Notes under the pieces: generated by a model
Told to the model about the DNA's origin: nothing
Seen by the model: the letters and a program-made list of their open reading frames with translations, nothing else
The model's database searches: none
Assembly: GCF_026870155.1 (NCBI RefSeq)
Contig: NZ_CP113975.1
Location: 4,712,001 to 4,776,000 of the forward strand
Source of the DNA: Flavobacterium marginilacus
GTDB lineage: Bacteria > Bacteroidota > Bacteroidia > Flavobacteriales > Flavobacteriaceae
DNA: 64,000 nt
Direction: 5' to 3'
Shown here: in pieces, positions 2,587-54,007 of the stretch
Layout of the letters: every line of letters begins with the position of its first letter
Position numbering within the stretch: position 1 is the first letter of the stretch
Position numbers and translations under genes: made by a program

Positions 2587-4121
2587 TGAAAGAAAATCAG
2601 CAATTAACCTTAATTATAGCGCTAGCAACACTTGCTAGATCTATTATTGCCGTATCAATAGGCTTGGGCAACGACGAAGTGTATTATCTGACGTATGCCC
2701 AGCACCTGCAATGGAATTATTTTGACCATCCGCCAATGGTTGCGTTGCTAATTCGGCTGACAACTTTTAATCTCAATTTGACTAATGAGCTTTTTGTGCG
2801 TTTGGGATCAATTATTTTTGGAGCTGTTAACACTTATCTTATTTATTACATCTGCAAAGGAATTAAAAATAAAAAAGCGGGTTTAATTGCTTCGTTGCTT
2901 TATTCAGGTTCCTTGTATTCGAGCATAATTGCAGGAGTATTTATTTTACCGGACTCTCCTCAATTATTTTTTTGGCTGATTAGTATTCATTTTTTAATTC
3001 AGATTGTTTCAGGAACAGCCGAAGCTAAAAAACTTAATAACCGCCTAATTCTATTTGGTTTATTCAGCGGATTGTGTATTATGAGCAAAATTCACGGGAT
3101 TTTTTTATGGGCTGGTTTTGGGTTGTACATTTTATGCTACCAAAGAACTTTACTAAAAAATGGTTATCTGTATTTATCAGTCCTGATTACTTTGCTCATT
3201 ATTTCGCCAATTTTAATTTGGAACATCGAAAACCATTTTATAACCTATACCTATCACAGCCAAAGAGTCTCAATTAGCAGGGGAATCAATATTTCCGGCT
3301 TTTTTAGGGAGTTTTTCGGAGGCCTTTTTTATAACAATCCGATTAATTATTTTTTGATATTTTGCTCTTTAACTGCCATTTGGAAAAACAAAATCGACAT
3401 TTCCACAGCTGTCAAAAGACTGCTTCTTTTGATAAGCCTTCCTTTAATTCTATTGTTACTTTCTATCTCATTCTTCAGAGACACTTTACCACATTGGTCG
3501 GGTCCGGCTTTTGTCACACTCTTGATACTCACTTCCTGCTACATTTCAGATGAAATAGAAAAAACCAAGGACAGAAATTCAACATGGAGAAAATTAGTAA
3601 ATACCTCCTGTGTATTGATTTCTCTAATTGCGCTGGCAGGCATCCTAACCATAAATTTCTATCCAGGAACAATTGGAAGCAAAAATGAAATATCCTTGGG
3701 CAAAAAGGACTTTACACTTGATATGTATGATTGGAACTTCTTCAAAACTGAATTTGAAAAAGTCCGCAATAAAAACATAGAATCGGGTATAACAAAAACC
3801 ACTTTCGTCATAAATAACAAATGGTTTCCTGGAGCGCATATTGACAATTATATTGCACAGCCTCTGGGTCTAGACTTTATAGCTTTAGGAAAGCTGGAAG
3901 ACATTCATACTTATGATTGGTTAAATGCCTATAAAAAACAGCTAAAAATTGGTGATGATGCTTATTTTATTACTGTTTCGAATAGTTTTAGTGATCCGAA
4001 TGAATTATACAAAAAGAGTTTTGAAAAAATTAATCCCCCAATAATTATTAAACAATTCAGGAATAAAAAACCTGTTCGAAATATGCTGGTTTATTTACTT
4101 CAGAATTATACTGGAGAATAA
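2586..4121 (+). CDS. GT39-type (ArnT/PMT-like) membrane glycosyltransferase
   Basis: 511 residues with a dozen or so hydrophobic segments and a soluble C-terminal region from about residue 360. The first periplasmic loop has GNDEVYYLTYAQHLQWNYFDHPPMVALLIRL, which matches the acidic-plus-HPP pattern of the ArnT/PMT_2 superfamily (catalytic Asp/Glu in the loop after TM1, then DHPP). These enzymes transfer a sugar from a polyprenyl phosphate to lipid A, protein or other envelope acceptors at the periplasmic face. It is the last gene of the PAP2-GtrA-GT39 unit. Acceptor and sugar cannot be read from sequence. Confidence 0.85.
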   Translation: MKENQQLTLIIALATLARSIIAVSIGLGNDEVYYLTYAQHLQWNYFDHPPMVALLIRLTTFNLNLTNELFVRLGSIIFGAVNTYLIYYICKGIKNKKAGLIASLLYSGSLYSSIIAGVFILPDSPQLFFWLISIHFLIQIVSGTAEAKKLNNRLILFGLFSGLCIMSKIHGIFLWAGFGLYILCYQRTLLKNGYLYLSVLITLLIISPILIWNIENHFITYTYHSQRVSISRGINISGFFREFFGGLFYNNPINYFLIFCSLTAIWKNKIDISTAVKRLLLLISLPLILLLLSISFFRDTLPHWSGPAFVTLLILTSCYISDEIEKTKDRNSTWRKLVNTSCVLISLIALAGILTINFYPGTIGSKNEISLGKKDFTLDMYDWNFFKTEFEKVRNKNIESGITKTTFVINNKWFPGAHIDNYIAQPLGLDFIALGKLEDIHTYDWLNAYKKQLKIGDDAYFITVSNSFSDPNELYKKSFEKINPPIIIKQFRNKKPVRNMLVYLLQNYTGE

Positions 4122-4124
4122 CTT

Positions 4125-4336
4125 CAACCCATTGGGTTAAATTATTTTTAACCACATAGAAACATAGAATTTCCTATGTATTTAAAAGAATTTGATAGGC
4201 GTTTTACTTTTCGCATAGCCAATCTATGTGAAAAACAGTGCTGTTTTCTATCTATTCTTTGACGATTAATTATAAATCTATGTCTCTATGTGGTTAATTT
4301 TTTATTTAATTTGAATTTCATCCAACGGGTTAACAT
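4125..4336. repeat. Nested inverted repeat filling the pbpC/GT39 gap
   Basis: The 230-bp gap between convergent genes is nearly all one palindromic element. Inner arms TTAACCACATAGA (from 4149) and TCTATGTGGTTAA (ending 4296) pair almost perfectly and continue as AACATAG/CTATGTC; the outer arms AACCCATTGGGTTAA (4127 onward) and CCAACGGGTTAAC (ending near 4334) are also complementary. No ORF lies inside. It resembles short palindromic intergenic repeats of flavobacteria, but copy number cannot be judged here. Confidence 0.6.
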
Positions 4337-4351
4337 TCATTCGTTCTAAAG

Positions 4352-6745
4352 TTACTCCTTCACAATCTCAATTTTTCTTCGGATTTCATTTCCAAATTCA
4401 TCGACTACGGTGATGTAATGGAATCCCGTCGTGGCCGAAATAGGCATTTCGTGAAAAGTTTTGGTTGTGCCTTTAAAAGCATTATCGACATACCAAAACA
4501 GTTTGCTTTCGCGTTGCGAATGGGCTACTTTCAGGATTACGGGCTGTACCTCGCTATTAAAATTTTTGGTAAGATAGATTTTGCTGTTGGTTTTGGGATA
4601 AATAAAATCCATTGTTGTGGTTTGCGATCCCATACAATCATTTCTAAACGGGGGCAACGGCAGATACTCTATGTGTTGGCTTTTGTAATACCAAGCCATT
4701 ACGGGAGGCAAAACAAACCAATTTTTGGTCACAATATTATCGACACTTTCACAACTGCTGTTGACCTGAAACTGCAGTGTTTTGTCCAAATGCACCGTTT
4801 TGTGATAGGGACAAACAGCCGTGTTTTTTCCTTTTTTGGGAACCCATTGTTTAATTGTCGGACAGCCTTCTTTGGCAATATATCCACTCAAATTACAAAC
4901 CTCAACCTCTTCCAAATCCTTATACGGAGTATCAAACCATCTCTGTCTTGGCAACAAATTAAAAACATCAAACAAAATAGGAGCAGAACTGCTAACTCCC
5001 GTCAATGTTGGTCTTCCTTCCCCTGTAGCGTTGCCTACCCACACTCCTACAACATATCTCGCGTTCGTTCCTATCGCCCACGCATCGCGATTACCAAAAC
5101 TGGTTCCGGTTTTCCAAGCAATCTTGAGCGAACTGTCATAAAATTTCCAAGCCTCGTCACCTTCAGGGCGGTTGACTTGTTCCATTGCGTTATACGTAAG
5201 CCAAATCGAACCGGCTCCCAAAATGTTCTTTTGCTTCGTCTCGTCCCCAAAATCTACTTGAAAACGATCATCATAATTGAGTTCTGCAAATTCATTGGTT
5301 CTGTATTGTCCATTATTTTTATTGAAATAATTCAAAGTGGAAGATAAGCCTGCATAAGTTCGGCACAAATCCCACAAATTACTTTCGGCTCCACCCAAAA
5401 TGAGCGACAAACCATAATGATCCGGCGGTTTTGAAATATCGCGCAACTTGAACCGTTGTAATTCTTCGTAAAATTTGTTCACGCCAAAATCCTGCAACAT
5501 CAATACGGCAGGAATATTCAGGGAACGCGATAATGCCCTGTGTGCCGGAACAGCACCATCAAATGTCAGGTTGAAATTTTGCGGTGTATAACCCGAAATC
5601 TGCGTCGGAATGTCTGCCACCAATGTATTGGGCAACAATTCCCCGTCGTCGAGCATTGCCCCATACAAAAGCGGTTTGAGAATACTTCCTGTACTTCGGG
5701 GTGCATCGATAATATCCACATCTTTTTGGTGGTTACCATCCGTAGGCGAATTCCCCACGTAACTCATCACTTTTCTATTGGACACATCAATGACCAAAAT
5801 AGCCAAATTATGGACTTCATTTTGTTTGTATTGATTATAGTAATACTTCGCAATTTGATTGACCCTGTTTTGCAATCCAATTTCAATAGTAGTTTTCACC
5901 CTCTTTCCCGACTGATTCTTGGCAACACGTTGCAACAAATGGGGAGCAATTTGGGGCAAATCATACGGCTTTTGTGGCAAGGGTTCGTCTATCGAAAGTT
6001 CGTAGGTCTGTTTGTCAATTACTCCTTCTTTATTCAATTTCAACAAAAGCCGGTTGCGTTTATTCAGTAATTCTGTTTGGTTTTTTCCCGGATAAATTAA
6101 ACTTGGCGCATTAGGCAAAACAGCCAAAGTAGCGCTTTCTGCCCACGACAATTGGTGGGCTTGCACCCCAAAATACCGCCAAGAAGCCATTTCAAGACCT
6201 ACCACATTTCCTCCAAACGGAGCGTGCGAGGCATATAATTCTAAAATTTCGTTTTTGGAATATCCCAACTCCAATCGGGTGGCGAGAATGAGTTCGATTA
6301 TTTTCTCGAAATAGGTTCGGCTCTTACCATTTCTAGACAAGCGGATTACCTGTTGCGTCAAGGTGCTTCCTCCACGAACGACTTTGCCTGCTTTTCGGTT
6401 TTGCTGAAAAGCATTGAACATCGCCATAGGATTAAATCCTGGGTGCTTGTAGAAATACTCATCCTCAAAATAGACAATGCATTTCTTGAATTTATAGGGA
6501 ACGCTGTCTTGAGCAGGAAACCGCCATTGCCCGTCAAGCGCAATTTTGGCACCAAGCAATTCTCCTTCCCTGCTTTCAATCACCGTGGAATAAGGCTCCT
6601 GAAACAAAGTCCTAGGCAACGAAAAATAATAAACCATCAACAGCAAAAATGCTATTGATGATTTGATTTTATTCTTTTTTATCCAATTGATGATGCGTTG
6701 TGAGAACGCAATTAGTTTATTTTTCAAAGTTTTTTTATTTTCCAT
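4352..6745 (-). CDS. pbpC: Penicillin-binding protein 1C
   Basis: Bifunctional peptidoglycan synthase of about 797 aa, the normal PBP1C length. A short basic cytoplasmic tail and one TM helix (SSIAFLLLMVYYF) precede the GT51 domain (EDEYFYKHPGFNP, then GGSTLTQQ, with catalytic Glu at about residue 94), the transpeptidase domain (SILK with Ser354/Lys357; SLN; KTGTSFGNRDAW), and the C-terminal BiPBP_C domain that marks PBP1C. I chose ATG 6745 because the upstream 14 codons (MTVFRTLVFWKPVR) lie outside family homology. The next gene upstream is an alpha-2-macroglobulin lipoprotein; pbpC and a macroglobulin are neighbours in many Gram-negatives, where they are proposed to trap proteases and repair the wall after envelope damage. 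Confidence 0.95.
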   Translation of the reverse strand: MENKKTLKNKLIAFSQRIINWIKKNKIKSSIAFLLLMVYYFSLPRTLFQEPYSTVIESREGELLGAKIALDGQWRFPAQDSVPYKFKKCIVYFEDEYFYKHPGFNPMAMFNAFQQNRKAGKVVRGGSTLTQQVIRLSRNGKSRTYFEKIIELILATRLELGYSKNEILELYASHAPFGGNVVGLEMASWRYFGVQAHQLSWAESATLAVLPNAPSLIYPGKNQTELLNKRNRLLLKLNKEGVIDKQTYELSIDEPLPQKPYDLPQIAPHLLQRVAKNQSGKRVKTTIEIGLQNRVNQIAKYYYNQYKQNEVHNLAILVIDVSNRKVMSYVGNSPTDGNHQKDVDIIDAPRSTGSILKPLLYGAMLDDGELLPNTLVADIPTQISGYTPQNFNLTFDGAVPAHRALSRSLNIPAVLMLQDFGVNKFYEELQRFKLRDISKPPDHYGLSLILGGAESNLWDLCRTYAGLSSTLNYFNKNNGQYRTNEFAELNYDDRFQVDFGDETKQKNILGAGSIWLTYNAMEQVNRPEGDEAWKFYDSSLKIAWKTGTSFGNRDAWAIGTNARYVVGVWVGNATGEGRPTLTGVSSSAPILFDVFNLLPRQRWFDTPYKDLEEVEVCNLSGYIAKEGCPTIKQWVPKKGKNTAVCPYHKTVHLDKTLQFQVNSSCESVDNIVTKNWFVLPPVMAWYYKSQHIEYLPLPPFRNDCMGSQTTTMDFIYPKTNSKIYLTKNFNSEVQPVILKVAHSQRESKLFWYVDNAFKGTTKTFHEMPISATTGFHYITVVDEFGNEIRRKIEIVKE

Positions 6746-28881: not shown

Positions 28882-29304
28882 TTAATTTCCTGACATTGTT
28901 TTCAGAAAAGTTTCAGGTGTCATTATTGACAAATTACTCATTTTATAATCTTTAATATTACGTGTTACTATTACTTTAATATCATTTTTATTTTCTACCG
29001 AATAGTTTTGCAAAGCATCTTCAAAATCTTTGAAATCTGAATTTAATGCTTCTATAACCGTAGTTTTATCAATAACAACAACATCTACTATCTTTAGTAG
29101 TTTTTTCAGATTCCCGATTACCTTTTCGTGTTTTGCTGTCTTTCGCAAAAGGTTATAAATATTGCTAATCATCACGGGAGTTACATAGCCGTACAGTTTG
29201 CCTTTTTCGCATAAACTCAAAATTTTTGACGCCTCTTCTGAAAATGGTTCTCGGTCAAAAAAGAAATCAAGAATTACATCCGTATCAATTAAAATTTTAT
29301 CCAT
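28882..29304 (-). CDS. PIN-domain toxin (VapC-like)
   Basis: 140 aa with PIN acidic residues: DTDVILDFFFDREPF at the start, E in the SEEASKIL helix, DFEDALQ and TRNIKDYK near the end. PIN toxins are Mg-dependent RNases cutting tRNA or rRNA. The start codon overlaps the stop of the upstream antitoxin by 1 bp, so they are translationally coupled. Confidence 0.88.
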   Translation of the reverse strand: MDKILIDTDVILDFFFDREPFSEEASKILSLCEKGKLYGYVTPVMISNIYNLLRKTAKHEKVIGNLKKLLKIVDVVVIDKTTVIEALNSDFKDFEDALQNYSVENKNDIKVIVTRNIKDYKMSNLSIMTPETFLKTMSGN

Positions 29305-29552
29305 TACAAATATTTATCAGATAAGCGGTCGGTAAGTTCTTTTTTGTAATCAAAATTCTCAGGTAATTTAAACGACCCTCTTAAAGATTTAACTGTCGGA
29401 GTTAGCTCTTCTTCTTTGTCAGCTTCCTCATTAGTTAATGCTTTCAGATAGTTTTCAATTAAATCAGAAAGACTTCTTTCTCTTTTGCGAGCATATTTTT
29501 TAGCCTTTTCAATTACGGACTGTTCGATTGTCAATGTGAGTTTACTATTCAT
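29304..29552 (-). CDS. DUF6364-type antitoxin
   Basis: 82 aa: MNSKLTLTIEQSVIEKAKKYARKRERSLSDLIENYLKAL is a ribbon-helix-helix DNA-binding motif, followed by an acidic linker and a C-terminal toxin-binding tail (RGSFKLPENFDYKKELTDRL). Partner of the PIN toxin. Two direct ACGTGTATT words 24 bp apart upstream are likely operator half-sites. Confidence 0.85.
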   Translation of the reverse strand: MNSKLTLTIEQSVIEKAKKYARKRERSLSDLIENYLKALTNEEADKEEELTPTVKSLRGSFKLPENFDYKKELTDRLSDKYL

Positions 29553-29693: not shown

Positions 29694-29765
29694 AGAGATT
29701 TAGCTTCAAATCGTTTCTTTGCTTCCTTGTTAGCACCAGTATTTCATTTAAAACATCATTTAATC
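29694..29765 (-). pseudogene. Degenerate copy of the 3' end of the antitoxin-like gene at 30277
   Basis: About 70 bp are clearly homologous to 30307-30376: both share TTTAGCTTCAAATCGTTTCTTT and CATTTAAAACATCATT with scattered changes between. The reading (minus) keeps AKKRFEAK but is frameshifted upstream, so it is a relic. Together with the intact gene it brackets the 22-bp array. Confidence 0.65.
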
Positions 29766-29854
29766 AAAAACAAAAGCCACTCCGTAGTGAAGCAGCTTTA
29801 TTGATGTTCTTTGTGGGTACAGATTTCAAATCTGCACCATCGGGCGGGGTTAAT
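29766..29854. repeat. Palindromic remnants preceding the 22-bp array
   Basis: Contains an imperfect hairpin (AAGCCACT...AGTG...AGCTT, about 29777-29800) with a T-rich exit on the minus strand, and CAGATTTCAAATCTG (29819-29833), a perfect palindrome around its central base, followed by CACCATCGGGCGGGG. Such GTGGG(C/T)AC-led elements recur at 30569. No ORF. Confidence 0.45.
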
Positions 29855-30118
29855 CACCAATAATATTGGTACAAAACACCTGTACTATTGGTCTTAAGCA
29901 CCTCTATTATTATGGTTAAACACCAATACTATTGGTGCAAACTACCTGTTATATTGGCTTTAATCACCAACACTGTTGGTTATAAGCACCTCTATTATTA
30001 TGGCTAAACACCAATACTATTGGTGCAAACTACCTGTTGTATTGGCTTTTATCACCAATACTATTGGTGTTTTACACCAATAGTACAGGTGTTAAGCACC
30101 TCTATTGTTATGGTTAAG
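29855..30118. repeat. Twelve-unit tandem array of 22-bp palindromic units
   Basis: Twelve contiguous units of exactly 22 bp start at 29855, 29877, 29899 and so on to 30097, with a truncated thirteenth at 30119. Each has a 17-bp dyad (for example CACCAATACTATTGGTG) plus a 5-bp AT linker. Half-sites come in at least three types (CACCAATA, CACCTGTA, CACCTCTA) that are recombined between left and right arms. Units 3-6 and 7-10 form an 88-bp higher-order repeat. The period is not a multiple of three and stops are frequent, so it is not coding. Confidence 0.92.
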
Positions 30119-30176
30119 CACCTGTTTTTAGTAAATCAACGCATATATGGGCTGGATTGCTAAATACATTTGGAGC

Positions 30177-30209
30177 AAAAAAAATGCCTCTTTTGAATTT
30201 AAAGAGGCA
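30177..30209 (-). terminator. Terminator of the orphan antitoxin-like gene
   Basis: Stem TGCCTCTTT (30185-30193) / AAAGAGGCA (30201-30209); read on the minus strand it ends in a run of eight T. Confidence 0.75.
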
Positions 30210-30276: not shown

Positions 30277-30510
30277 TTATATTGTGCTTGTGCTAGATGT
30301 AGCAAATTTAGCTTCAAATCGTTTCTTTACTTCCTCATATGTTGCAATATCTCCATTTAAAACATCATTCAAACCCTTTTGAATAATCTGATTTTCAAAA
30401 TCAGAAATCTGGTTTTTGTTTTTTAAATCAAGAATTTCTTCAATGATTTTCTCGTCATTCAACCCTTGAATCCATTGCAATAGATTTTGTTTTTCGACTA
30501 CAATATTCAT
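30277..30510 (-). CDS. Antitoxin-like small protein without visible toxin
   Basis: 77 aa from ATG 30510: MNIVVEKQNLLQWIQGLNDEKIIEEILDLKNKNQ...IIQKGLNDVLNGDIATYEEVKKRFEAKF. In Bacteroidetes, proteins with this layout usually precede a RelE/ParE toxin gene and act as antitoxin; here the downstream space holds only a terminator and the 22-bp array. The promoter is intact (TAAATTTG at 30533-30540, minus). A degenerate second copy of its 3' end lies at 29694. It may be a solitary antitoxin left after toxin loss; the family assignment is by recall of sequence style only. Confidence 0.6.
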   Translation of the reverse strand: MNIVVEKQNLLQWIQGLNDEKIIEEILDLKNKNQISDFENQIIQKGLNDVLNGDIATYEEVKKRFEAKFATSSTSTI

Positions 30511-30687: not shown

Positions 30688-30804
30688 TTTATCTTTAAAT
30701 TATTGGGTGAAATTATGTTTAGAACGGTGCTTAAATGGTTGAATTATTCAACTTTCATTTAAAGACATATTTTATGACTTGACAACATTATTTATTAAAA
30801 ACTA

Positions 30805-30859
30805 AAAACTACTTAAAACTACTTAAAACTACTTAAAACTACTTAAAACTACTTAAAAC
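30805..30859. repeat. Decamer tandem repeat
   Basis: Five and a half perfect copies of AAAACTACTT, followed directly by AAAGGGATTGCAAC. Likely a slippage-prone microsatellite; copy number would vary between strains. Confidence 0.85.
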
Positions 30860-31271: not shown

Positions 31272-31630
31272 TAAAATTAAAACACTGTAAATCAATGATT
31301 TGTGTACTTGCTAAGTGCGAAAACCGTTAAATATAACAGAATTCTTATTACAACAAAACGATAATATAGTAAGTACTTAATTCAATAATCTTATTTAATA
31401 TCCTTACAGATGATAGTTTTCCTGTTTGAAACATTTTTTTAAAGTAACAATCACTTTTTTGATCTACACAGGCCATTTTTTTATTTATGCTCATGTGATT
31501 GCTTCGTCCCTCGCAATGACAAATAGCTGATTATAAAACCAATTGCCCTAGCCCTGACAGCAGTGGAAATCCTTTTTTTTCCGATTTTCTCGTGATAAAA
31601 AGATTGCAACGGATAGCAGGATTAGCTCCC
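31272..31630. other. AT-rich gap plus a dispersed repeat
   Basis: 31272-31490 is AT-rich with nothing I can identify. From about 31500 come TTGCTTCGTCCCTCGCAATGAC and a repeat of the form CTAGCCCTGACAGCAGTGGAAATCC...GATTGCAACGGATAGCAGGATTAG (31547-31627). The same family, in reverse orientation, is the target of the insertion sequence at 52559. Confidence 0.55.
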
Positions 31631-50412: not shown

Positions 50413-50955
50413 ATGAAATTACAAATTCACAAAAAAACCACACTGTTAAGCTTGAGTAAAAAATTATTGGTATTAAGTTTCTTCTTTATTGCTACGAACA
50501 CTTTCTATGGTCAAACTTCTAAAACCAAAGAAGAAGCAACTGTCGAAAAAAAAGCTAAAGAAACCAAGAAAAAAGCAGACAAAGCAACGAAAGACTCCAA
50601 AGAAACAGCCGATAAAGCCGTAAAGGAAACCAAGAAAAAAGCAGACAAAGCATCAAAAGACTCCAAAGCAACAGCCGATAAAGCCGTAAAGGAAACCAAA
50701 AAAACAGCAGACAAAGCAAGTAAGGATTCCAAAACTACAGCCGATAAAATGGCAAAAGAAACTAAAAAAACAGCAGACAAAGCAACGAAAGAAGCGAAAA
50801 AAGAAGCTGCAAAAACTTCGGATAAAACAAAATCGGCAGTCAAAACAGCTGATAAAGTAACTGGAGAATACAATGGCAAAAAAGTATACACCGGTCCTCA
50901 GGGAGGTAAATATTACATCAATTCAAACGGGAATAAAACTTATATAAAACAATAA
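50413..50955 (+). CDS. Secreted Lys/Ala-rich repeat protein with PBCV-adaptor-like C-terminus
   Basis: 180 aa. A signal-like N-terminus (LSKKLLVLSFFFIATNTFYGQ|TSK) leads to about eight repeats of an 11-residue type (KKADKASKDSK, KATADKAVKETKK) that must form a long, highly basic helix like histone H1 tails, and a C-terminal motif (NGKKVYTGPQGGKYYINSNG...YIKQ) with the PBCV-basic-adaptor pattern. Probably DNA- or polyanion-binding at the cell surface. Follows the SprA-like gene at 62 bp on the same strand. The antisense frame is open throughout but that is a by-product of the repeats. Confidence 0.75.
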   Translation: MKLQIHKKTTLLSLSKKLLVLSFFFIATNTFYGQTSKTKEEATVEKKAKETKKKADKATKDSKETADKAVKETKKKADKASKDSKATADKAVKETKKTADKASKDSKTTADKMAKETKKTADKATKEAKKEAAKTSDKTKSAVKTADKVTGEYNGKKVYTGPQGGKYYINSNGNKTYIKQ

Positions 50956-52437: not shown

Positions 52438-52558
52438 ACTAAGTGCTATTAAAGTTTTTAGGAGCAGAAAGATTGGGCGTTTTCAGGAAGCATTAGTCCC
52501 GCTTTTCATTTCAATCTTGTTTGCCGAACACCGGCAAACAAGGATTTCCACTGCAATC

Positions 52559-54007
52559 CTACCGTGTGGACACAAATACAATTTCGTTATTTTTATCACT
52601 AAATAAAGATATAATATGCGAAGATATTTTACAGACATTGATGATTCTCGACTATTAAAAAGGAGTAATTTAATATTAGATAGTTTATTTCATAATTGTG
52701 TTCATTCGATACGTCAGCTTACACAAAGCGATTCAGAATGTAAAGCAGTTTATCGTTTCTTGCAGAACAAAAGAGTTTCAGAATCGAAATTAATTAAAAA
52801 CATGTCAGCAAACTGCTGTTTTTCAGCTCAAGACAAAACAGTTTTATGTATACAGGACACAAGTGAGGTCAATTTATATAATCATAAAAACAGAGTTAAA
52901 AAAGACGAATTTATAGGATTGACTAATGCTGCAACAAAAGGAGGAATTGGATTTTTACTGCATCCTAGTTTCGTTATAGATGCTTATAGTTTTGTTCCGT
53001 ATGGCTTTTCAGATGTAAAAATATGGAACAGGCCTTTAGAGAAACTTACAAAAAAGGAAAGGAATTATAATTTGCTTCCAATTGAAGAAAAGGAATCTTA
53101 TAAATGGATAGAATCTTCCCAAAAATCCAAGGAAGTTTTAGAGAAATCAAAAAAAGTCATCATCATTCAGGATCGAGAAGGTGATATTTATGAGCAATTT
53201 GCAATGATTCCAGATCAAAAGACGGAATTATTGGTAAGAGCAAGAGCAAACAGAACGCTACTAAACAAGGTTAAATTGTTTAGTTTTATAGCCAATGAAC
53301 CTCTTAAAGGGAAATATACGATAGAATTAGAAGGTGATAAAAGAAGAAATATAAACAAACGGGAAGCTACCTTAGAAGTTAGATTTTCTGAAGTAACTAT
53401 CCAAAAAAATGATTTAGTTTCAAAGAATGCACCCAAAAGCCTTGATTTATATATCATCGAAGCAAAAGAAATTGGCGATAACATTGATAATCCAATATGC
53501 TGGAGATTACTAACAACCATTAAAGTCTTAGACCTAGACACAGCCTTAAAATGTATCGAATGGTATACTTGTAGATGGATTATAGAAGAGGTTTTTAGAA
53601 TTCTAAAAAAGGAAGGATTTAATATAGAAGCAAGCGAATTAGGTTCTGCAAAATCTATTCGAAAATTGTCTTTAATGATGATGGAGACAATTGTCAAACT
53701 ATTTTTAATGCAAATAGCATATAGTATTCCAGAGGAAGAAATAGAAGCGAGAAGTTGTTTTTCAGATCAAGAACTTGAATGTTTAGAATATCAAATGATA
53801 AAATTAGAAGGAAAAACAGAAAAATTAAAAAATCCTCATATCCAAAAGGATTTAAAAAGATATGTTTGGGTTATTGCAAGGCTTGGTGGATGGAAAGGAT
53901 ATGCAAGTGGGAGAAAACCAGGAATAACCACTTTCTCTATCGGAATACAGAAATTTGCTTCAATAATGGAGGGATGGCAATTGTTTTTAGATGTGTCCAC
54001 ACGGTAG
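52559..54007 (+). mobile_element. IS4-family insertion sequence, complete, 1449 bp
   Basis: Terminal inverted repeats CTACCGTGTGGACACA are perfect over 16 bp at both ends (52559-52574 and 53992-54007). The element is flanked by a 9-bp target duplication ACTGCAATC (52550-52558 and 54008-54016). 9-bp duplication plus transposase motifs place it near the IS50-like branch of IS4. Intact duplications and ORF suggest a recent insertion. Confidence 0.93.
52616..54007 (+). CDS. IS4-family transposase
   Basis: 463 aa. N-terminal DNA-binding region (SIRQLTQSDSECKAVYRFLQN), then DDE residues: Asp in CIQDTSEVN, Asp in IIQDREGDIYE, and the IS4 signature Y-(2)-R-(3)-E-(6)-K in YTCRWIIEEVFRILKK. It reads from 57 bp inside the left end and its TAG stop is formed by the last three bases of the element. 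Catalyses cut-and-paste transposition. Confidence 0.95.
   Translation: MRRYFTDIDDSRLLKRSNLILDSLFHNCVHSIRQLTQSDSECKAVYRFLQNKRVSESKLIKNMSANCCFSAQDKTVLCIQDTSEVNLYNHKNRVKKDEFIGLTNAATKGGIGFLLHPSFVIDAYSFVPYGFSDVKIWNRPLEKLTKKERNYNLLPIEEKESYKWIESSQKSKEVLEKSKKVIIIQDREGDIYEQFAMIPDQKTELLVRARANRTLLNKVKLFSFIANEPLKGKYTIELEGDKRRNINKREATLEVRFSEVTIQKNDLVSKNAPKSLDLYIIEAKEIGDNIDNPICWRLLTTIKVLDLDTALKCIEWYTCRWIIEEVFRILKKEGFNIEASELGSAKSIRKLSLMMMETIVKLFLMQIAYSIPEEEIEARSCFSDQELECLEYQMIKLEGKTEKLKNPHIQKDLKRYVWVIARLGGWKGYASGRKPGITTFSIGIQKFASIMEGWQLFLDVSTR

Follow-up and report, generated by a model that had tools for sequence, protein, structure and literature searches.

The window, a stretch of 64,000 nucleotides from Flavobacterium marginilacus, carries a tandem array in which 12 consecutive units of exactly 22 bp follow one another without gaps and a partial thirteenth begins (Table 1), as the initial annotation had described. 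The array is noncoding, as was also claimed, with no ORF of at least 50 aa crossing it. The 88-bp superrepeat noticed earlier is recovered by TRF (91% matches, score 321), which also returns 44- and 22-bp periods. The swapped half-sites are likewise there—unit 2 pairs CACCTGTA with TATTGGTC and unit 11 pairs CACCAATA with TACAGGTG—and unit 6 has both arms altered (CACCAACA/TGTTGGTT). Comparison with loci that retain the two genes described below, A and B, sets the minus strand of the array as the sense of gene B.

Read in that sense, the array is followed by a REP-like palindrome, which was found with one base changed in a second genome of the species, and then by a DUF6364/PIN toxin-antitoxin pair, likewise on the minus strand. 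The PIN-domain gene is the likely partner of the DUF6364 antitoxin-like gene; the latter is co-directional with the array's B sense, lies inside a stretch matched in G493 (a genome of the same species) and is possibly cargo. On the other side, the terminator-like hairpin sits, by eye, where the hairpin behind gene A sits in intact loci, and beyond it is a small ORF for which no Pfam family was found. The array had been placed between an antitoxin-like gene and a broken copy of that gene's end; both are present, and because the fragment matches the end of the small ORF, the broken copy is the one on the left and the longer ORF the one on the right.

Table 1. Features at and around the array, in positions of the window
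Feature	Position	Strand	Basis or remark
PIN-domain toxin-like gene	28882..29304	-	PF13470, E=1.2e-18
DUF6364/ribbon-helix-helix antitoxin-like gene	29304..29552	-	PF19891, E=1.1e-27
Fragment resembling the end of the small ORF across the array	29698..29760	.	57/68 alignment columns identical to 30306-30369
REP-like palindrome	29813..29838	.	abuts the array on the would-be gene B side
12-unit array, 22 bp, CACCNNTA-type dyad half-sites	29855..30118	-	unit listing, TRF, similar home-genome arrays beside gene B
Start of unit 13, CACCTGTTTTT	30119..30129	-	also present where the two most similar arrays end towards gene A
Terminator-like hairpin (TGCCTCTTT..AAAGAGGCA and T-run on minus strand)	30177..30209	-	by eye
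Small ORF, 77 aa, antitoxin-like by eye	30277..30510	-	where gene A lies in intact loci

Half-sites seem to assort freely

The paired change in unit 6 had been read as a sign that dyad symmetry is maintained. In the window array the consensus dyad is stronger than under column permutation (p=0.005, the lowest value that the test can give). Of the 46 arrays kept, all with at least 6 units, 31 have a consensus dyad at p<=0.05 and 18 have one at p<=0.01 (27 and 21, respectively, in an earlier test on 45 arrays). A rule by which the two arms of a unit change together is not supported: arm matching is higher within than between units in only 19 of the 46 arrays, and in the window array the two values are 5.25 and 5.17 of 8 (p=0.46). 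Compensatory maintenance of each dyad was rejected on these counts. Because arms are no better matched within units than between them, half-sites seem to be drawn from a pool and to assort freely, and unit 6 of the window is an exception, not the rule. These results also bear on the idea of a role for the array as RNA or in the form of single-stranded hairpins. Folding is conceivable for perfect dyads such as CACCAATACTATTGGTG, but the arms lack within-unit compensation, no Rfam family matched in the array, and a terminator-like hairpin (by eye) splits A from the array in intact loci, so that we hold this explanation to be extremely improbable. The candidate of an RNA family in the array was rejected for want of an Rfam match.

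A module of gene A, array and gene B

Arrays of this kind are part of a module in which gene A (~165 aa) is followed by a terminator, the array and gene B (~120 aa), and which occurs in Flavobacterium and some other Bacteroidota. The home genome, to which the window belongs, contains six arrays, that of the window included, four of them beside B. A DNA search gave three further arrays, with similar ones beside B at C1:1244 kb and C1:1802 kb; two of these three lie between gene A, with its terminator-like hairpin, and gene B, and the third has B and no intact A. The fifth array (L115) is next to another copy of B and has both genes. The sixth, traced via mismatch matches 88 bp apart, consists of 14 units of 22 bp at L255:1430-1745 (C1 ~77.9-78.2 kb) with, by eye, only the tail of A and no B. 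The window array is adjoined by neither gene and, because of its context, looks like a gene-less copy of the module. A search of the home genome for the unit, as the initial annotation had proposed, led mostly to arrays: pattern CACCNNTANTANNGGTG occurs at 6 places in 5.3 Mb, all within arrays. Similarly, CACCAATANTATTGGTG occurs at 3 places exactly and at 4 with one mismatch, all 7 within arrays, and with two mismatches 6 of 10 places are within arrays.

Among 296 relatives, B is found in 24 genomes (E<=1e-6) and A in 25, and the two occur together in 15 against 2.0 expected (P=5e-13), with cut-offs that differ between A and B. The end of the array lies 8-151 bp ahead of the start of B in 42 of 44 loci. 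The A-array-B array-regulator module is undescribed in the libraries and literature searched; in that literature, judged by titles and abstract openings and mostly consisting of papers outside subscription, there is no description of array or module.

Gene A could not be assigned with confidence to any family in Pfam, NCBIfam or PHROGs and has no significant relative in the PDB. Its relatives number 432, and those of B 116 by protein search and 447 with a profile. Among the entries that carry a name, with the longer lists limited to their best 120, the A relatives go by "hypothetical protein" or the like; the names of the B relatives are "hypothetical protein," "transcriptional regulator" and "XRE/helix-turn-helix." Gene B from L053 has weak matches to HTH_3 (E=0.022) and to a PHROG transcriptional regulator (E=0.0008), and PF01381 is precomputed for the distant members P0245-P0247. 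AlphaFold2 gives B five XRE-type helices (18-80) and a further helix at 88-117 (pLDDT 75, pTM 0.48), a model on which B is probably a DNA-binding XRE-type helix-turn-helix protein with a C-terminal helix. No PDB match of this model falls below E=0.37; the XRE antitoxins HipB and HigA are among its best matches, which also include repressors and are all insignificant, and HigA is matched by sequence as well (E=0.46, insignificant). However, the HipB and HigA systems differ, in that no HipA- or HigB-type toxin was found by Pfam among 20 first downstream genes of B.

The period is kept while the unit changes

Upstream of 40 B loci, whose B proteins include relatives down to 24% identity, the best lag in a scan from 15 to 60 was 22 (13 loci), 44 (12), 21 (9), 43 (4; 43 being 21 + 22) or 42 (2), which accounts for 40 of 40. 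Each locus was compared with 100 dinucleotide shuffles, and 38 beat all of them; L127 and L128 showed no significant array upstream of B by this measure. A period score of at least 0.6 was reached upstream of B in 32 of the 40 loci versus 4 of 217 control windows located downstream in the same loci. The arrays of L135 and L136, where tblastn did not find B, were scored separately. While the period is kept, the units range between loci from the CACCAATA type to ACTACGCA..TGCGTAGT and TCCAATATCCCTTTGGGAG.

The same holds for part of the wider family. L165 and L166 have 21-bp arrays, that of L167 is weak and L168 has none that is clear; among more distant XRE proteins (L169-L176) an array was seen in 0 of 8, with top scores of 0.43-0.51 scored without shuffles. 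In a named collection of 21 loci, 8 of them new, 5 of the new ones beat their shuffles at lag 22, 43 or 44 (L291 narrowly), and L285 beat them at lag 28; no array was seen in L296 or L299. Periodicity is also found behind gene A: within 400 bp downstream of 16 divergent A genes, 14 regions scored above every shuffle, with a lag of 21, 22 or 42 (16 of 17 regions were counted, L231 being a repeat of an A partly represented by L124).

The array tracks the DNA-binding half of B

Array sequence tracks the DNA-binding half of B, and neither its C-terminus nor A. In Mantel tests on 36 loci with a k-mer array distance—L119, L120, L128 and loci whose B gene is short or interrupted having been dropped—array and HTH distances correlate at r=0.55 and, given the C-terminus, at 0.43, versus -0.17 for array and C-terminus given HTH. 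The corresponding values for 23 closer loci are 0.75, 0.76 and -0.44. In the 18 loci with A, the correlation of array with HTH given A is 0.81, and that of array with A given HTH is -0.61. The permutation p-values of these tests are too small because the loci are related, and HTH replacement in them may rest on few events. L104 and L110 are 85% identical in A and 89% in the C-terminus of B versus 57% in the HTH, and their array similarity is 0.37; for L104 and L105 it is 0.96.

In L110-L113 and in L114, B has a different DNA-binding half, a similar C-terminal half and a different array motif, and in L110-L113 gene A is likewise similar. From these sequences, domain replacement in the B genes of L110-L113 and L114 is possible.

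Arrays without gene B

Arrays also occur apart from B. In 12 of the 14 divergent A-array loci there is no B gene within the stretch fetched, and a B profile search of nine A-carrying genomes gave no B at E<=1e-3 in G013, G043, G198, G249 and G263, B elsewhere in G061, and weaker matches in G197, G269 and G134. G005 has an orphan array with no A and no B at E<=1e-3. Since A-array loci and orphans exist without B, all of A-array-B, A-array, array-B and array alone occur. The orphans L066, L067 and L069 are one locus in three genomes and, by eye, retain a stretch like the leader behind B. Another orphan 22-bp array lies at ~5705-5950 of L068, between genes that by eye are substrate-binding-protein-like and transporter-permease-like.

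Two findings favor binding by some other protein—A itself, a third regulator or a nucleoid protein—with B as one of several settlers adjoining the array: behind gene A, arrays with the same period are also seen at loci that gave no B, and orphans retain ten or more units. This is an unlikely explanation, as where B is present the array tracks its DNA-binding half and not A, and as B is predicted to be XRE-like while A has no recognized domain.

Arrays differ by whole units between two genomes of the species

Alignment of arrays between strains, another check that had been suggested, revealed differences in unit number: of five arrays compared between the home genome and G493 (all home arrays but the sixth), three differ by exactly one 22-bp unit. 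The window array is one unit shorter in G493, L051 one longer and L052 one shorter; L053 and L115 are equal. Substitutions, counted in the same arrays except L115 (no phase consensus), amount to 14/600 in arms, 9/282 in linker and centre and 22/878 in flanks, and half-site conservation between same-species genomes was rejected, as the substitutions do not spare the half-sites. In unit 6 of the window array both arms differ between the two genomes (AACA/TGTT versus AATA/TATT), but another unit altered one arm only. The window array changed faster (12/255) than three B-adjacent arrays (11/627), which speaks for decay, and we read it as a platform that has lost A, B and the leader described below.

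In part, arrays behave as expected of a neutral satellite, a functionless tandem repeat growing and shrinking by slippage: whole units differ and half-sites are unconserved between these two genomes, and gene-less copies exist. Yet a period of 21, 22 or 43 bp persists across unrelated units, the position of the array relative to A and B (following the one, preceding the other) is fixed, and its sequence tracks B's DNA-binding half, all of which makes this explanation improbable. Of the options originally considered—a nucleoprotein array, a silencer/partition-like site or a mobile satellite—a phased nucleoprotein array fits best, because the period is constant while units change and because the array tracks the DNA-binding half of B. 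The satellite-like side is real too, in the form of gene-less copies at several sites and whole-unit differences between strains.

Cargo behind gene B turns over

Cargo behind B turns over while its surroundings stay the same. In six genomes, as far as the fetched stretches extend, an HlyIII-like gene is followed in constant order by A, array, B, cargo and aconitase (the stretches of L261 and L263 start with the HlyIII-like gene and that of L271 with A; for the home genome, G000, the HlyIII-like gene is in L053). In this slot, two genomes of the same species differ, with a NACHT gene in G000 (L053:7410-9209) versus a PD-T4-6-like protein kinase gene in G493 (L267:13368-14903). The other four have a PDC-S31-like DUF2971 gene (G227), Abi_alpha (G030), a trypsin-like gene with an LmuA match (G153) and three genes of which the one tested had no match (G171). 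A 421-aa gene adjoining aconitase is common to two of the six. Cargo also differs in two further locus groups, in which L265 carries PycC- and PycTM-like genes, and L269 a Ppl-like gene versus an MNT/HepT pair in L270.

All 33 ORFs of at least 90 aa between B and the right-hand shared gene in the 11 loci of these three groups are oriented as B, an orientation that says less in the second and third groups because some or all of the right-hand genes there also point B's way. At least one defence-type match (PADLOC, NACHT or HepT) is present in 8 of the 11 loci; such a match is lacking in L262, L264 and L266, where a single cargo gene per locus was tested. With PADLOC, matches were obtained for 6 of 20 first downstream genes (that of L121 on the opposite strand) versus 1 of 20 upstream neighbors, a contrast weak by itself because its probability is ~0.046 one-sided and 0.09 two-sided; the samples, from 36 first downstream genes and 32 upstream neighbors, were unmatched by locus. 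In 26 of 36 loci, B and the first downstream gene share a strand, the other ten loci being distant family members, several of whose neighbors are by eye housekeeping genes. Conserved flanks around strain-variable defence genes, which define a defence hotspot, are thus found in three locus groups of the close subfamily, the window not being among them. In L265, two cyclase-like genes and then a PycTM-like gene lie behind B (3412-5690), a cargo whose sequence suggests a Pycsar-type system.

Close loci share ~130 bp after B, comprising a TAnnTTTG promoter-like site, often a foldable stretch and TATA..AGTT, after which the cargo-side sequence starts. Of 44 loci, 22 have TAnnTTTG in the 150 bp that follow B (a count made without shuffle control). 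A TAnnTTTG promoter just upstream of B was dismissed as weak, since 9 of the 44 loci have the motif no more than 140 bp from the B start versus 3.5 expected. The junction expression matched 17 of 24 hand-chosen close loci in its general form and 4 more through alternatives added by eye, and the AGTT pattern is in 5 of the 8 new loci. One junction regular expression, run on 14 loci and the window, found the B-side junction in 8 loci and scattered other matches, none of which could be placed at the 3' end of cargo; L264 and L266 have one match after the TetR-like gene that bounds the cargo.

A probable operator array and its relation to known systems

In the explanation we favor, with a probability of roughly 0.6, dimers of B are aligned along one face of the array, where they autoregulate B and may also gate cargo, and the array of the window is the module's operator part in orphan form. 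In this mechanism, B dimers would occupy the inverted half-sites that recur every 21-22 bp and, because this distance is two helical turns, typically about ten of them would be aligned on one face of the DNA as a filament. The complex would be well placed to autoregulate B because the array ends so shortly before the B start, and it could also gate the cargo behind B, which is often of defence type. The window array may be bound in trans by home B proteins of the same unit type. Adjacency of the array to A and B, constancy of the period, tracking of B's DNA-binding half and turnover of cargo are observed, and binding, the dimer filament, autoregulation and gating are inferred from them. Co-occurrence of A and B, the concentration of CACCAATANTATTGGTG in arrays, the XRE-type model and the one-unit differences between strains also count in favor of the explanation. 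It is weakened by the A-array loci of genomes without B at E<=1e-3 and the gene-less array of G005, by substitutions that do not spare half-sites and that came faster in the window array, by arms matched no better within units than between them, by consensus dyads at p<=0.05 in no more than 31 of 46 arrays, by the relatedness of the Mantel loci, by L127, L128 and those new loci that lack an array of the expected period, and by the pTM of 0.48 and the insignificant PDB matches of the B model.

KfrA of RA3 (PMC7783346) has an N-terminal DNA-binding domain, a helical C-terminal part and an operator of repeats in both orientations at its own gene. B resembles it in its HTH and alpha-helical tail (AlphaFold2) and in the array of inverted repeats at its gene. 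Differences exist, though. According to PMC7783346, the KfrA operator consists of five 9-bp repeats overlapping -35 and -10, the tail has ~300 residues (54-355), and the gene is plasmid-borne; here, dyads recur every 21-22 bp in typically about ten units with periods of 21, 22, 43 and 42/44 and not 9 bp, the C-terminal helix of B spans ~30 residues, and the loci lie on chromosomes and include gene A and cargo. The likeness, in that a DNA-binding protein with a helical tail is encoded next to repeated sites, lends some credit to a centromere-like or chromosome-organizing site with B as a ParR- or KfrA-type protein. We judge this very improbable: B has no plasmid or phage match at E<=1e-5, six arrays of differing sequence are in one chromosome, and Pfam identified no ParA- or ParM-like family, nor any partition-type motor NTPase, among 20 first downstream genes (A is without a Pfam family, and of the upstream neighbors the HlyIII-like one was run through Pfam). 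A plasmid or phage origin of B was rejected on the same absence of matches at E<=1e-5, the plasmid search having been made with B of L053 against 72,556 records.

Other systems share single traits with the operator array that we favor. BldC, a MerR-like protein, forms a cooperative multimer head-to-tail on direct repeats (PMC5859096); repeated DNA sites are common to both, but here they are inverted half-sites and not direct repeats. CRISPR arrays differ in that the window array consists of gap-free 22-bp units without spacers. In core defence hotspots, for example those of Pseudomonas aeruginosa, defence genes are at fixed chromosomal places (PMC10250203); here, the A-array-B module and leader form one border.

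Integrons provide a different parallel: a constant platform with a promoter-like sequence and a recurrent GTT junction precedes changeable one-way genes. The AGTT junction of the module's leader recalls the integron core site, and cargo is one-way. A broader and rather doubtful reading along these lines is that A-array-B is a new kind of cassette platform, in which a helically phased operator array of changeable specificity would keep the neighboring slot silent or poised and defence genes would be exchanged behind a conserved promoter, with AGTT as the fixed junction and along a recombination route without an integron integrase in cis, gene-less arrays being spent or trans-controlled platforms. 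An integron proper was rejected, with no integrase above cut-off in the home genome: TIGR02249 (IntI) gave 7 pieces below cut-off, the best at 113.7 versus 265 bits, and similarly loose matches are found in 14 of 14 control genomes.

If the explanation that we favor is true, a noncoding repeat marks both a regulator family and slots of defence-gene exchange in Flavobacterium, and the array could serve as a marker for finding further unknown defence genes. The many array-protein pairs with different motifs would then be a natural experiment on the joint change of DNA-binding specificity and a multi-site operator.

Other repeats and RNAs of the window

Near the array, a 10-bp repeat, ACTTAAAACT, is present in about six copies at 30801-30859 (97% matches, TRF). 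A second tandem array, with a period of 33/66 bp, is located at 50556-50802 (87% matches at 66 bp, TRF), and two Flavo-1 RNAs (RF01705) score above the gathering threshold at 31546-31627 (+) and 52491-52575 (-).
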